The notes under the pieces: model-generated
What the model saw: the letters and a program-made list of their open reading frames with translations, nothing else
Told to the model about the DNA's origin: nothing
The model's database searches: none
Program-made: the position numbers and the translations under genes
Shown here: positions 3,050-10,015 of the stretch, in pieces
Position numbering within the stretch: position 1 is the stretch's first letter
Layout of the letters: every line of letters starts with the position of its first letter
From: a virus
Length of the DNA stretch: 40,817 nt
Virus record (IMG/VR): IMGVR_UViG_3300031957_000408
Location: 1 to 40,817 of that record
Direction: 5' to 3' (one strand)

Positions 3050-4683
3050 TAGTATCCAAATTTATTATCTACCATATGATAGCTATCTTGAACTGATGAT
3101 AATCTAAACCTTGCTGCATATTTAGGATGTGTAGGTCTACTCATACATCCATATCTTAATGCATCGTATGCATGATCTTCTGCATTTGTATCAACATCTT
3201 CAGGATTCTTATCATCCGTGGGTAATGTTCCTAAAGTTCTAATTAAATTTCTACAATTTTTAAAAATTCTTATACCTGGTACTTTATCTTCACCTACTCG
3301 TAATCTCTTGTGAACTTCTAACTTACCATTAATTCTACTCTTTGGAGATCTATCTGATGGTCTCCATCTACAACCTTGTTGTATCATTGTCTCTGCAATA
3401 CTAGGACCAACATCACCTCTCTTAGCCCATGTACTAACATCTAATACACCGTAGTGTATATATTCACCTTTTTCTAAATTAAGGACTTGTCGTGCGAAAT
3501 AATCTGCTGTAACCTTTTTGGTATACAATTCTCTATAGATCCAGATATTGTTATCATAATCAATAGCAAACCAAAGGACACAAGCAGGAGAACTGTAACC
3601 CCAATCAGCAGCACGAAATTTATACCAACTACGAGGTATCTCAAAAGGTTCGACCACGTGAGTTGTTTTACTAAATTCTGGAAAAGCTGAATCTTCATAT
3701 GCATCCCAATCTCCATCTAAAAATTGTTTTCGCTGTACTTCAGGTAATGATGCAAGCATGATGTAATAATCATCAGTTTGCATTAGATAGGGATTGTCTT
3801 GTAACTTTGCAGGAATAAACCTACGGGTAATATATTTTTTACCGTTAGGTGTATCTATCCCTACATCAAAAGCCGTATTGGGTTCTGCTGGTTCTACGAA
3901 CATTTCTCTTACCCATTGTGAACCAACGTTACCTGGATTACCCGTTGCTCTTAAGTATACTGGTATTTCAGGATCTACACTTCTAAGTGATGATCTTAAA
4001 AAGTTATATATATCTGGCGAAGGATATTGTGGAAGTTCGTCTATTCCTATCCATGTGTATGATTGACCTTGGTATCTTAAAACATCCGTCATGTTTTCTG
4101 CGTAACCAAACTCTATCTTTGCCCCTGATGGGAATCGCCACTCTTTTTCTTGCTCTCTCCATTTTGCTCCTGGAAATGCTTTCGAGTATAATAGCTGAGA
4201 CTTTTGAATTAAGTCTCTTAACTCTGGCATTGTCCTTCTAATTAGGAGTGCTCGGTGTTGAGCTTTGGAACAGTATCGAAGCGGATCTACTAGCATCGCA
4301 TATGATTTACCACCGCCTCTTGCTCCACCATAAAAAACTTCTCTTTCAGAAGCTGCAAGGAATTGTGTCTGTGGACCTTCATTAGGTTTAAAGATCACCT
4401 CTTGCTGATTTATGTGCTCTTTTACGTTTTTAGGAGCACTCTCGATTATGTCTTCCGTAAGTAGTTGAGTCTCTTTTCCTTTTAAAGACTTATCTATAGT
4501 TAACAGTTTATTTTTAATATTTTCTGCTGACTGTTTGGCAGATCTTAGAGATTGTTCTGCCTTTGCAACTTTCTTACGACTGCGAGCTAGAATCTGTTGT
4601 GTTGACTTCTTGGCTTTCTTTTGAATTATCTTCTTGGGTTTCGGAGGTTGTATTTCTTGCAAGTCTTTTTTTAAGTCCGACAT
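3049..4683 (-). CDS. terL: Terminase large subunit (TerL)
   Basis: 544 residues; the ATP-driven packaging motor and endonuclease. Walker A is GGARGGGKS near residues 119-127 and Walker B IGIDE near 212-216; RATGNPG near 245-251 fits the coupling motif. The RNase H-like nuclease domain shows acidic residues in RAADWG (Asp360), GVLDVS (Asp415) and EDHAYDALRY (near 503-507). An unusual Lys/Gln-rich, probably coiled-coil extension of about 95 residues precedes the ATPase. Its first 110 bases overlap the HTH gene upstream; the AGGA ribosome site lies about 13 bases before the ATG. It acts with TerS and the portal at the capsid vertex. Confidence 0.96.
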   Translation of the reverse strand: MSDLKKDLQEIQPPKPKKIIQKKAKKSTQQILARSRKKVAKAEQSLRSAKQSAENIKNKLLTIDKSLKGKETQLLTEDIIESAPKNVKEHINQQEVIFKPNEGPQTQFLAASEREVFYGGARGGGKSYAMLVDPLRYCSKAQHRALLIRRTMPELRDLIQKSQLLYSKAFPGAKWREQEKEWRFPSGAKIEFGYAENMTDVLRYQGQSYTWIGIDELPQYPSPDIYNFLRSSLRSVDPEIPVYLRATGNPGNVGSQWVREMFVEPAEPNTAFDVGIDTPNGKKYITRRFIPAKLQDNPYLMQTDDYYIMLASLPEVQRKQFLDGDWDAYEDSAFPEFSKTTHVVEPFEIPRSWYKFRAADWGYSSPACVLWFAIDYDNNIWIYRELYTKKVTADYFARQVLNLEKGEYIHYGVLDVSTWAKRGDVGPSIAETMIQQGCRWRPSDRSPKSRINGKLEVHKRLRVGEDKVPGIRIFKNCRNLIRTLGTLPTDDKNPEDVDTNAEDHAYDALRYGCMSRPTHPKYAARFRLSSVQDSYHMVDNKFGY

Positions 4684-7561: not shown

Positions 7562-7630
7562 ATGCAAACAACACTAGCTACATTTTTTTGGGCAACCATT
7601 ATAATGTTAATGATTGCTACATTTTTATAA
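7562..7630 (+). CDS. 22-residue hydrophobic membrane peptide
   Basis: Encodes MQTTLATFFWATIIMLMIAT plus FL: almost wholly hydrophobic with no charged residue, long enough for one membrane crossing. It has a good ribosome site (AAAGGATAATT before the ATG), its own promoter 20 bases upstream and an intrinsic terminator 27 bases downstream, so it is a complete monocistronic unit. Independent expression of such a tiny hydrophobic peptide suggests a membrane-active role (exclusion, toxin-like or lysis timing), which is inference. Confidence 0.6.
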   Translation: MQTTLATFFWATIIMLMIATFL

Positions 7631-7656
7631 AAAAATATATGGAAACAGATAGGTAG

Positions 7657-7691
7657 AACCCCTTGTGTCAGCTTGACGCAGGGGGTTTTTT
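7657..7691 (+). terminator. Terminator that contains the next promoter's -35 box
   Basis: A 14-bp stem (7657-7670 with 7674-7687, two wobble pairs) with a 3-base loop and a run of T at 7686-7691. TTGACG inside its loop and right arm (7673-7678) is the -35 of the following promoter. Confidence 0.88.
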
Positions 7692-7701
7692 ATTATATAC
7701 T
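7673..7701 (+). promoter_or_regulatory. Promoter embedded in the terminator
   Basis: TTGACG (7673-7678), 17 bases, TATACT (7696-7701). The -35 box is inside the terminator hairpin and the spacer is its right arm and T-run. The element recurs at 8031-8077 in the same geometry and is followed by AACAAAGGAG in both places. Confidence 0.75.
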
Positions 7702-7726
7702 ATAAGCATTAACAAAGGAGATGTTT

Positions 7727-7996
7727 ATGGCAACGACACCATATAGAAAACTTCAAGAACGAGTAAAAGAACTTGAAGATATAAGCAAAGCACACCAAAA
7801 ACAAAATGGTGATTTGCATTTAAAAATAGCTGACTTAGAGACTGTTATTAATTTATTAAAAGATAGATTAGAAACAACAGAAGAACCACTAAGACAACTA
7901 TGCCACATAATAAAAGTCACTAGCTTTTTTGATAATGCTAGGGCAACACAAATGAAACAAGCTAGAGATATAGTTGATATAAATTATGTACCATAA
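7727..7996 (+). CDS. Coiled-coil hypothetical protein
   Basis: 89 residues from the second ATG (MATTPYRKLQERVKELEDIS). The AAGGAG at 7715-7720 touches the first ATG at 7721, so the ATG at 7727 is at the correct distance. Residues 8-55 have heptad spacing of Leu/Ile and look like a coiled coil, followed by a short helical C-terminus. Only gene between two terminator-promoter elements, so it is a one-gene cassette. Function unknown; oligomerisation likely. Confidence 0.7.
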   Translation: MATTPYRKLQERVKELEDISKAHQKQNGDLHLKIADLETVINLLKDRLETTEEPLRQLCHIIKVTSFFDNARATQMKQARDIVDINYVP

Positions 7997-8030
7997 AAAT
8001 TAACAGAATCTTTTTCTCCCTCGGAAAAGT

Positions 8031-8067
8031 AAAACCCTTGTGCCTTAATTGACACAGGGGTTTTTTT
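8031..8067 (+). terminator. Second terminator overlapping a promoter
   Basis: CCCTTGTG and CACAGGGG form the stem (8035-8042 with 8053-8060), extended by A-T pairs and followed by seven T at 8061-8067. TTGACA at 8049-8054 lies in the loop and right arm. The sequence is a diverged copy of the element at 7657-7701. Confidence 0.88.
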
Positions 8068-8077
8068 ATTGTATATT
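8049..8077 (+). promoter_or_regulatory. Promoter embedded in the second terminator
   Basis: TTGACA (8049-8054), 17 bases, TATATT (8072-8077). It starts a three-gene unit (8108, 8352, 8537). Confidence 0.78.
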
Positions 8078-8107
8078 ATAGTTCTCAACAAAGGAGTATA
8101 TATATAT

Positions 8108-8350
8108 ATGACAAACAACACACCAACAATAGATACAAGCTGGGAATTAAAGTGGCGTAGGTCTTTAAGAAAAAGACTTATCAACTGCCTTGCTCGTATT
8201 GAAAATGATGGCAAACCTACACAAGAACTTGGTTATGAATTAGCAAAAGCTAAGGAGTGCTTTGTATATTGGAATAGTGATGTTGCCTTGTGGGAAAAAC
8301 ATAAAATGGTTATTCCTACTAAACCTATGGGCGAAAGTGACGAGGTTTAA
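8108..8350 (+). CDS. 80-residue hypothetical protein
   Basis: Start at the ATG following AAAGGAG and an AT repeat (MTNNTPTIDTSWELKWRRSL). The frame extends upstream but that stretch contains the promoter. Basic helical N-terminal half (RRSLRKRLINCLARIE), mixed second half ending in GESDEV. No membrane segment or known motif. First of three genes in this cassette, one base before the lipoprotein gene. Confidence 0.68.
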   Translation: MTNNTPTIDTSWELKWRRSLRKRLINCLARIENDGKPTQELGYELAKAKECFVYWNSDVALWEKHKMVIPTKPMGESDEV

Positions 8351-8540: not shown

Positions 8541-8773
8541 GTACATCAGATAGTTTTTTTGAAATGGCAAAGTCAATTCAAGATACCTATTCAAGTGGAA
8601 GTATGCAAGGCGAACTATACACATTACAAAAGATAAAAGATTATCTTAATTCTGTTAGAGAAACAGATGAGATAAGAGTTATTAAATCTTATGTTAATGA
8701 GGGTATTGAAGATGTTCAAGCTAGAATTGGTAAGACACCAGTTGGAAAAGTATTGAACAACTTGACTCAATAA
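8537..8773 (+). CDS. Hypothetical helical protein
   Basis: 78 residues from the ATG at 8537 (MSTSDSFFEMAKSIQDTY), overlapping the lipoprotein stop (ATGA); a TTG six bases upstream is less likely. Helical, acidic to neutral (ELYTLQKIKDYLNSVRETDE, one helix), with a C-terminal GKTPVGKVLNNLTQ. Its last codons are also the -35 box (TTGACT) of the next promoter. Third gene of the cassette. Function unknown. Confidence 0.7.
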   Translation: MSTSDSFFEMAKSIQDTYSSGSMQGELYTLQKIKDYLNSVRETDEIRVIKSYVNEGIEDVQARIGKTPVGKVLNNLTQ

Positions 8774-8790
8774 AAATAATATAGTAATAT
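8762..8790 (+). promoter_or_regulatory. Promoter overlapping the end of a gene, followed by a 5' hairpin
   Basis: TTGACT (8762-8767), 17 bases, TAATAT (8785-8790). The word AATAATATAGTAATATA around the -10 recurs at 9946-9962 in an equivalent promoter. The predicted transcript start coincides with the base of the hairpin at 8795. Confidence 0.6.
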
Positions 8791-8794
8791 AATT

Positions 8795-8828
8795 AGGCGT
8801 TGTCAGGGAGACTTGGCAACGCCTTTTT
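8795..8828 (+). terminator. Hairpin with T-run between two cassettes
   Basis: AGGCGTTG (8795-8802) pairs with CAACGCCT (8817-8824), with an inner GTC/GAC, followed by T at 8824-8828. It can end the upstream cassette. Because a promoter lies just ahead of it, it would also form the extreme 5' end of the next mRNA, where it could protect the message or attenuate it. Confidence 0.75.
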
Positions 8829-8848
8829 AATTTAATAAGGAGAACAAT

Positions 8849-9504: not shown

Positions 9505-9949
9505 ATGGTGTCAAAATCCCAAATGCCCCGAAAAGAAAAACTCAAATCAAATTAGGGGTAGCAAGGGTAGTAAGTATTATCAATCTAATCCTGCTAATGG
9601 ATATGGTAATGGTAATTTTTGCACACTTGGTTGTTATGATGCTTGGTCTAATATATATTTAGATAGAGCCATTGACGCAATAGGTGTTAGAATAACTGAA
9701 CCAGTAAAAGTTAATATGGAAAATGCTTGGCTTATTGATTCTGAATATCAGTATTCTAATGGTTATGGGGATAGTAATTGGCTTTATTTTTTAGTTAATA
9801 AATTATATAATATTAGACACCCTATTACTAAAGCACAAGCAATAAATGGAGAGCCTAACCCACAAGGATATAATGGTTGGAACGCTACAAAAACATCAGC
9901 ACAAGCCAAAGTTCTAGCAGAACAACTTGGCTTGACATCTCAACAATAA
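9488..9949 (+). CDS. Zinc-ribbon-like hypothetical protein
   Basis: 153 residues. N-terminal Cys pairs C8-x4-C13 (WCQNPKCPEKK) and C45-x3-C49 (FCTLGC) look like one zinc site with a Gly/Asn/Tyr-rich loop between. The rest (WLIDSEYQYSNGYGDSNWLY) is aromatic and polar. Ends in LGLTSQQ, where the codons for Leu-Thr also form the -35 box of the next promoter. Third gene of the cassette from the 8762 promoter. Confidence 0.75.
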   Translation: MARETKWCQNPKCPEKKNSNQIRGSKGSKYYQSNPANGYGNGNFCTLGCYDAWSNIYLDRAIDAIGVRITEPVKVNMENAWLIDSEYQYSNGYGDSNWLYFLVNKLYNIRHPITKAQAINGEPNPQGYNGWNATKTSAQAKVLAEQLGLTSQQ

Positions 9950-9960
9950 TATAGTAATAT
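9932..9960 (+). promoter_or_regulatory. Promoter overlapping the end of the zinc-ribbon gene
   Basis: TTGACA (9932-9937), 17 bases, TAATAT (9955-9960), with the same -10 surroundings as the promoter at 8762. The predicted transcript begins at a perfect 8-bp hairpin (GATACTAC at 9964-9971 with GTAGTATC at 9985-9992) that has no T-run, so it is a 5' stem-loop rather than a terminator. Confidence 0.62.
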
Positions 9961-10015
9961 ATAGATACTACTGACAACAAGTTGGTAGTATCTTCAACAA
10001 TGAAAGGAGTACTCA

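Follow-up and report, generated by a model that had tools for sequence, protein, structure and literature searches.

Two copies of a compact element in the early genes of a SAR11-phage-like virus combine a predicted intrinsic terminator with a sigma70-type promoter nested inside it. Each copy most likely (probability about 0.85) represents an overlapping boundary that would end one early transcript and start the next with the host RNA polymerase. The window, meaning the whole 40,817-nt stretch analysed, is a single 40.8-kb virus record. Judged by replication and packaging proteins, its nearest relative is pelagiphage HTVC033P (helicase 85% and terminase 90% identical), and HMO-2011-like phages come next. 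Both composites sit in a rightward array of early genes upstream of the primase-helicase-polymerase block, where we mapped the following features.

7655-7691, + strand: predicted intrinsic terminator of copy 1, 3' of a small ORF at 7562-7630 (stem 7655-7670/7674-7689, loop 7671-7673, T-run 7686-7691)
7673-7701, + strand: nested sigma70-type promoter of copy 1 (-35 TTGACG 7673-7678, -10 TATACT 7696-7701, spacer 17 bp)
7711-7720, + strand: AACAAAGGAG leader with a Shine-Dalgarno sequence, before the 89-91 aa gene
7721-7996, + strand: small gene between the composites (91 aa from 7721, 89 aa from the likelier ATG at 7727)
8031-8067, + strand: predicted intrinsic terminator of copy 2 (stem 8031-8042/8053-8064, loop 8043-8052, T-run 8061-8067)
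8049-8077, + strand: nested sigma70-type promoter of copy 2 (-35 TTGACA 8049-8054, -10 TATATT 8072-8077, spacer 17 bp)
8087-8096, + strand: AACAAAGGAG leader before the 80-aa gene
8108-8350, + strand: 80-aa gene with copy 2 as its predicted start element
8762-8829, + strand: boundary of a second class (promoter TTGACT-17-TAATAT 8762-8790, GAGA-loop hairpin 8795-8824, T-run)

The initial annotation placed overlapping terminators and promoters at 7657-7701 and 8031-8077, and both were recovered, with the copy 1 hairpin beginning at 7655. This hairpin (left arm AGAACCCCTTGTGTCA, loop GCT, right arm TGACGCAGGGGGTTTT) has a 16-bp stem and a 3-nt loop (-24.4 kcal/mol, z -6.7 versus shuffles), and that of copy 2 has a 12-bp stem and a 10-nt loop (-16.8 kcal/mol, z -4.2 versus shuffles). 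Folding z-scores of the nested elements, hereafter class 1, span -4.2 to -7.2. Over 48 nt the copies share 81% identity, and they lie 376 nt apart. In each, a stable GC-rich hairpin is followed directly by a T-run, and -35 and -10 hexamers stand at a conserved spacing of 17 bp, within the 17 ± 1 bp of sigma70-type promoters. Transcription is predicted to start near 7708 and 8084. The -35 box does fall in the loop and right arm as first described, with only one base in the loop in copy 1 and a division into TTGA (loop) and CA (arm) in copy 2. The 17-bp spacer to a TATA-type -10 likewise stands, but the T-run fills only part of it and not the whole; CAGGGG from the outer right arm and then a short run of A and T make up the remainder. 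Against a dual role are the copy 1 -35 box, which reads TTGACG and not TTGACA, and the G-U pairs in the copy 1 stem.

Each copy is followed by AACAAAGGAG and a start codon, as previously noted, except that ATG 7727 rather than 7721 is the probable start of the first gene, because GGAG-N6-ATGGCAACG is kept in relatives (e.g., locus L005). The product of this gene is coiled-coil-like, and a family search with it returned nothing above the cut-off. The 80-aa gene has a relative in HTVC033P (locus L010, 1794-2069) without a composite, and its relative in locus L125 is preceded by a different hairpin type. The micro-ORF adjoining the first composite (7562-7630) encodes a hydrophobic 22-aa peptide, MQTTLATFFWATIIMLMIATFL, and has its own TTGACA box upstream. 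Its HTVC033P counterpart (MQTTLATFFWATIILLVIASLS, L010 529-597) is conserved and absent from the HTVC033P annotation.

Could AT-rich promoter-like words simply coincide with terminators? We assembled 454 kb from loci fetched by protein homology to the product of the 144-aa gene downstream of the composites, together with HTVC033P and the window, a set chosen without reference to the pattern and containing 251 distinct intrinsic terminators. In 40 of the 251, the hairpin contained TTGAC and a -10-like hexamer followed at spacer 17; at spacers 16 and 18 there were 0 and 0 such cases among the same terminators. For 59 permutations of TTGAC the corresponding mean was 0.07 and the maximum 1; when all 1,024 5-mers were ranked in these terminators, the runner-up to TTGAC reached 13. 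A gapped strict pattern run against the viral collection returned 10 contigs, in 4 independent sequence groups by inspection, all with spacer 17 though 13-29 was allowed, and the reversed hexamer in the same pattern and collection gave 0 matches. In favour of coincidence, the region is AT-rich and promoter-like matches overall are no commoner than in shuffles (79 versus 98.8 expected). Nonetheless, the permuted-motif and spacing controls refute chance as the sole explanation, and we give it a negligible probability.

The hairpin and the hexamers appear to be constrained together. In the homology-chosen set, no two of the 32 distinct composite hairpins have the same left arm, and their right arms come in 27 versions; even so, arms pair with their own partner at 99% of positions versus 65% when arms are swapped between elements. 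Matching changes in both arms thus keep the pairing, while TTGAC and the -10 spacing remain fixed across composites. The arms diverge yet pair and TTGAC stays constant, which suggests that the hairpin is preserved for its structure in RNA and the hexamers for their role as DNA signals; such a joint constraint is to be expected where terminator and promoter share bases. The same observations bear on the idea that the inverted repeat around the -35 box chiefly binds a phage regulator, its terminator-like appearance being a by-product. The -35 box does lie within a DNA dyad (TGTCA..TGACG), and palindrome-binding regulators in promoters are known, such as GafZ, which binds between -35 and -10 (PMC11150451). 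A sequence-specific operator would not be expected to leave only TTGAC and the -10 fixed, however, and here the arms vary widely with pairing retained and the T-run always follows, so this role is disfavoured and seems to us very improbable. A divergent promoter was also rejected, since only 2 of 50 composites carry a promoter on the other strand. Rfam searches of the window and HTVC033P gave no match at the gathering score; sub-threshold matches to NsiR1, PyrR, RsaE, and a molybdenum riboswitch all fell far below the cut-off and were discarded.

The combined pattern, suggested earlier as a search query for other phages, recurs both in relatives, including HTVC033P, and in unrelated phages. 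All fetched loci together yielded 148 distinct elements, with spacer 17 in 131, 18 in 14, and 16 in 3, although this set was partly selected by the pattern itself. The loci form 27 mutually unalignable groups, 24 of which contain a spacer-17 element. HTVC033P has two composites, at L010 629 and 1259, whose arms differ from those of the window, and Staphylococcus phage P108 (Kayvirus) has four, all with spacer 17 (permuted mean 0.14), at 3528, 9521, 24260, and 27269 of locus L200, corresponding to P108 positions 53528, 59521, 74260, and 77269. The recurrence of the layout in many unrelated phages suggests a real compact gene boundary. Matches in bacterial and archaeal contigs (22, of which 14 at spacer 17) indicate that the nested arrangement is not exclusive to phages; composites in bacteria are rare. 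They were absent from six other marine phages (HTVC115P, HTVC103P, CRP-1, CRP-738, the left end of HMO-2011, and HTVC010P). HTVC010P and the HMO-2011-like phages examined have none, a further point against the dual role, so the composite is a lineage-level solution rather than a requirement. Querying isolated phages by DNA similarity to the short element returned mostly weak matches; those in Moraxella and S-CAM9 proved on inspection to be terminators without a scored -35 overlap and were set aside.

Taken as RNA, the GC-rich hairpin and U-tract would act as an intrinsic terminator for the transcript of the upstream small early gene. Taken as double-stranded DNA, the shared bases would form a host sigma70-type promoter, with TTGAC placed across loop and right arm, a spacer supplied by the outer arm and T-run, and the -10 immediately after. 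The nested promoter would then start the next gene through a short Shine-Dalgarno leader or, in relatives, also without a leader, from an ATG 6-9 nt past the -10. Downstream of 43 distinct elements in relatives, we found a Shine-Dalgarno leader in 21 and an ATG 6-9 nt after the -10 in 16, the latter probably giving leaderless mRNAs. Loci L142, L155, L165, L166, L170, L171, L185, and L186 carry this subtype, with -10 TATACT, an ATG 6-9 nt later, and no Shine-Dalgarno sequence. In HTVC033P, gp06 (L010 1255) is annotated to start at an ATG within a terminator hairpin; the likely start is an ATG near 1297, which lies 9 nt past the -10.

The element would thereby insulate and restart, with the upstream transcript ending in the T-run and host RNA polymerase starting about 17 nt further on, and the outcome would be a series of small early genes, each transcribed separately and divided from the next by about 47 bp of punctuation. 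Comparative sequence evidence, spacing, and arm pairing strongly support the original proposal of a compact boundary that ends one unit and starts the next; actual termination and initiation, use of the host RNA polymerase, and timing are what we infer from these patterns. Terminating and initiating polymerases need the same DNA, and therefore the two events would be mutually exclusive in time.

A further possibility adds coupling to this boundary role: a polymerase that terminates at the T-run may stay on the DNA and restart at the promoter beneath it, so that one enzyme serves successive early genes. In single-molecule studies, RNA polymerase usually remained bound to DNA once intrinsic termination was complete, diffused, and began again at promoters close by (PMC6978380, PMC11347151), and in the composites the predicted RNA end falls between -35 and -10, at about the shortest possible distance. 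On the other hand, in vivo demonstration is absent, as the authors of that work also state (PMC6978380, PMC11347151), and compactness by itself could account for the overlap, so we regard such coupling as attractive but unlikely. A specific form of it, in which the -35 and -10 on either side catch a polymerase that terminates in the spacer, so that upstream transcription primes rather than blocks the next promoter, is put forward tentatively and as unlikely. Were it true, early gene arrays would be transcribed by a relay of resident polymerases.

In a second class of boundary, the promoter precedes the terminator. A TTGAC-17 promoter stands before 51 of the 251 terminators, its -10 ending 0-15 nt ahead of the hairpin (permuted-motif mean 0.37), which would place the hairpin start at about +1. 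Roughly one in three terminators of these phages belongs to class 1 or class 2. Class 2 occurs in the window at 8762-8829, where a Shine-Dalgarno sequence and then the 144-aa gene follow, in HTVC033P (L010 3103-3170), and at many loci among L126-L188. Its recurring hairpin families are the GAGA-loop AAGGGCAATCAGCGAGAGTTGGTTGCCCTT and GACATCACTCAGACATCTGGGTGGTGTC. At 9932-9993 of the window, TTGACA-17-TAATAT is followed by a class 2 hairpin that has lost its T-run (ATCTTCAACAATG), unlike in L171 and L172, and its retention hints that the hairpin serves the mRNA 5' end in some way other than termination. Possible roles of class 2 are attenuation, production of a short RNA, and protection of the mRNA 5' end.

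Duplication of the class 1 element had also been read as a sign that gene cassettes are swapped at it. Genes do change across the boundary. Loci L006 and L009 are 98.6% identical over 500 nt upstream, with homology gone 55 nt after the -35, and L125 and the window are 90.5% identical over 481 nt downstream, with different upstream hairpins; on alignment, both pairs show gene exchange at the boundary. Spacing and gene content between composites vary among relatives. The element itself might promote the exchange, through homology between copies or hairpin cleavage. In favour of this are such pairs, which match as far as the element and are unrelated past it, the 544 element-only matches between otherwise unrelated flanks, and the 89% of alignments entering a composite, from either direction, that end inside it. 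Alignments end at other gene starts within 2 kb in 54-60% of cases (47-58% where at least 30 nt are intergenic), and at gene starts 150-400 nt from composites in 72-79%, nearly as often as at the composites and with overlapping intervals. In a first breakpoint analysis, gene starts in general looked like break points, and hazard-type analyses gave an excess at composites over the region that was only modest over location-matched gene starts. Class 2 elements break less (27-33%), and neither a recombinase gene nor a fixed core site was identified. Nearby gene starts thus break almost alike in a hypervariable neighbourhood, so the composites border exchangeable genes, which supports the cassette proposal in part; that they cause the exchange we consider improbable.

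The composite is a widespread natural element, defined by sequence, in which termination and initiation would compete for or share base pairs. It makes two issues testable by means of short constructs, namely polymerase recycling in cells and the insulation of neighbouring genes in very compact genomes. A hairpin containing TTGAC, a T-run, and a -10 at 17 may also serve as an annotation signature for early-gene boundaries in uncultured phages and would correct start-codon calls such as that of gp06.

Side-by-side terminators and promoters are ordinary. In Kayvirus, RNA-seq defined early units with 58 early promoters and 42 terminators (PMC7698491), built from tandem parts like those of the window, where a hairpin and T-run end a unit and a TTGACA-17-TATAAT promoter starts the next. 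The bases are shared in the window, whereas the available part of the Kayvirus account makes no mention of overlap (PMC7698491); by sequence, the four P108 cases are nested as in the window. The extended start-associated sequences (ESAS) of cluster K mycobacteriophages resemble the composites as repeated inverted repeats upstream of the start codons of small phage genes; they adjoin the 13-bp SAS and their arms lack RNA-pairing compensation (PMC3203893). Composites differ in having divergent arms that pair at 99%, a T-run downstream, and an embedded promoter, and with covarying arms they were not classed as ESAS. We found no explicit description of the nested overlap in the literature searched, of which coverage was incomplete and included few subscription journals, and as far as this incomplete search shows, the nested form with shared bases jointly constrained across many phages is new.

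Phage morons are extra genes with their own promoter and terminator. By sequence prediction the small gene here is likewise flanked by a promoter and a terminator of its own, lies where gene content varies, and is patchy in relatives; unlike morons, neighbouring cassettes share boundary bases and lie in an early array, not among late genes. In the frd terminator/ampC promoter-attenuator of E. coli, a terminator ends the upstream unit inside the region that controls the following gene, and the composites place a terminator similarly. At frd/ampC the promoter precedes the terminator, the order also seen in class 2 at 8762-8829, whereas in class 1 the -35 is within the terminator hairpin and initiation would occur downstream of the T-run.
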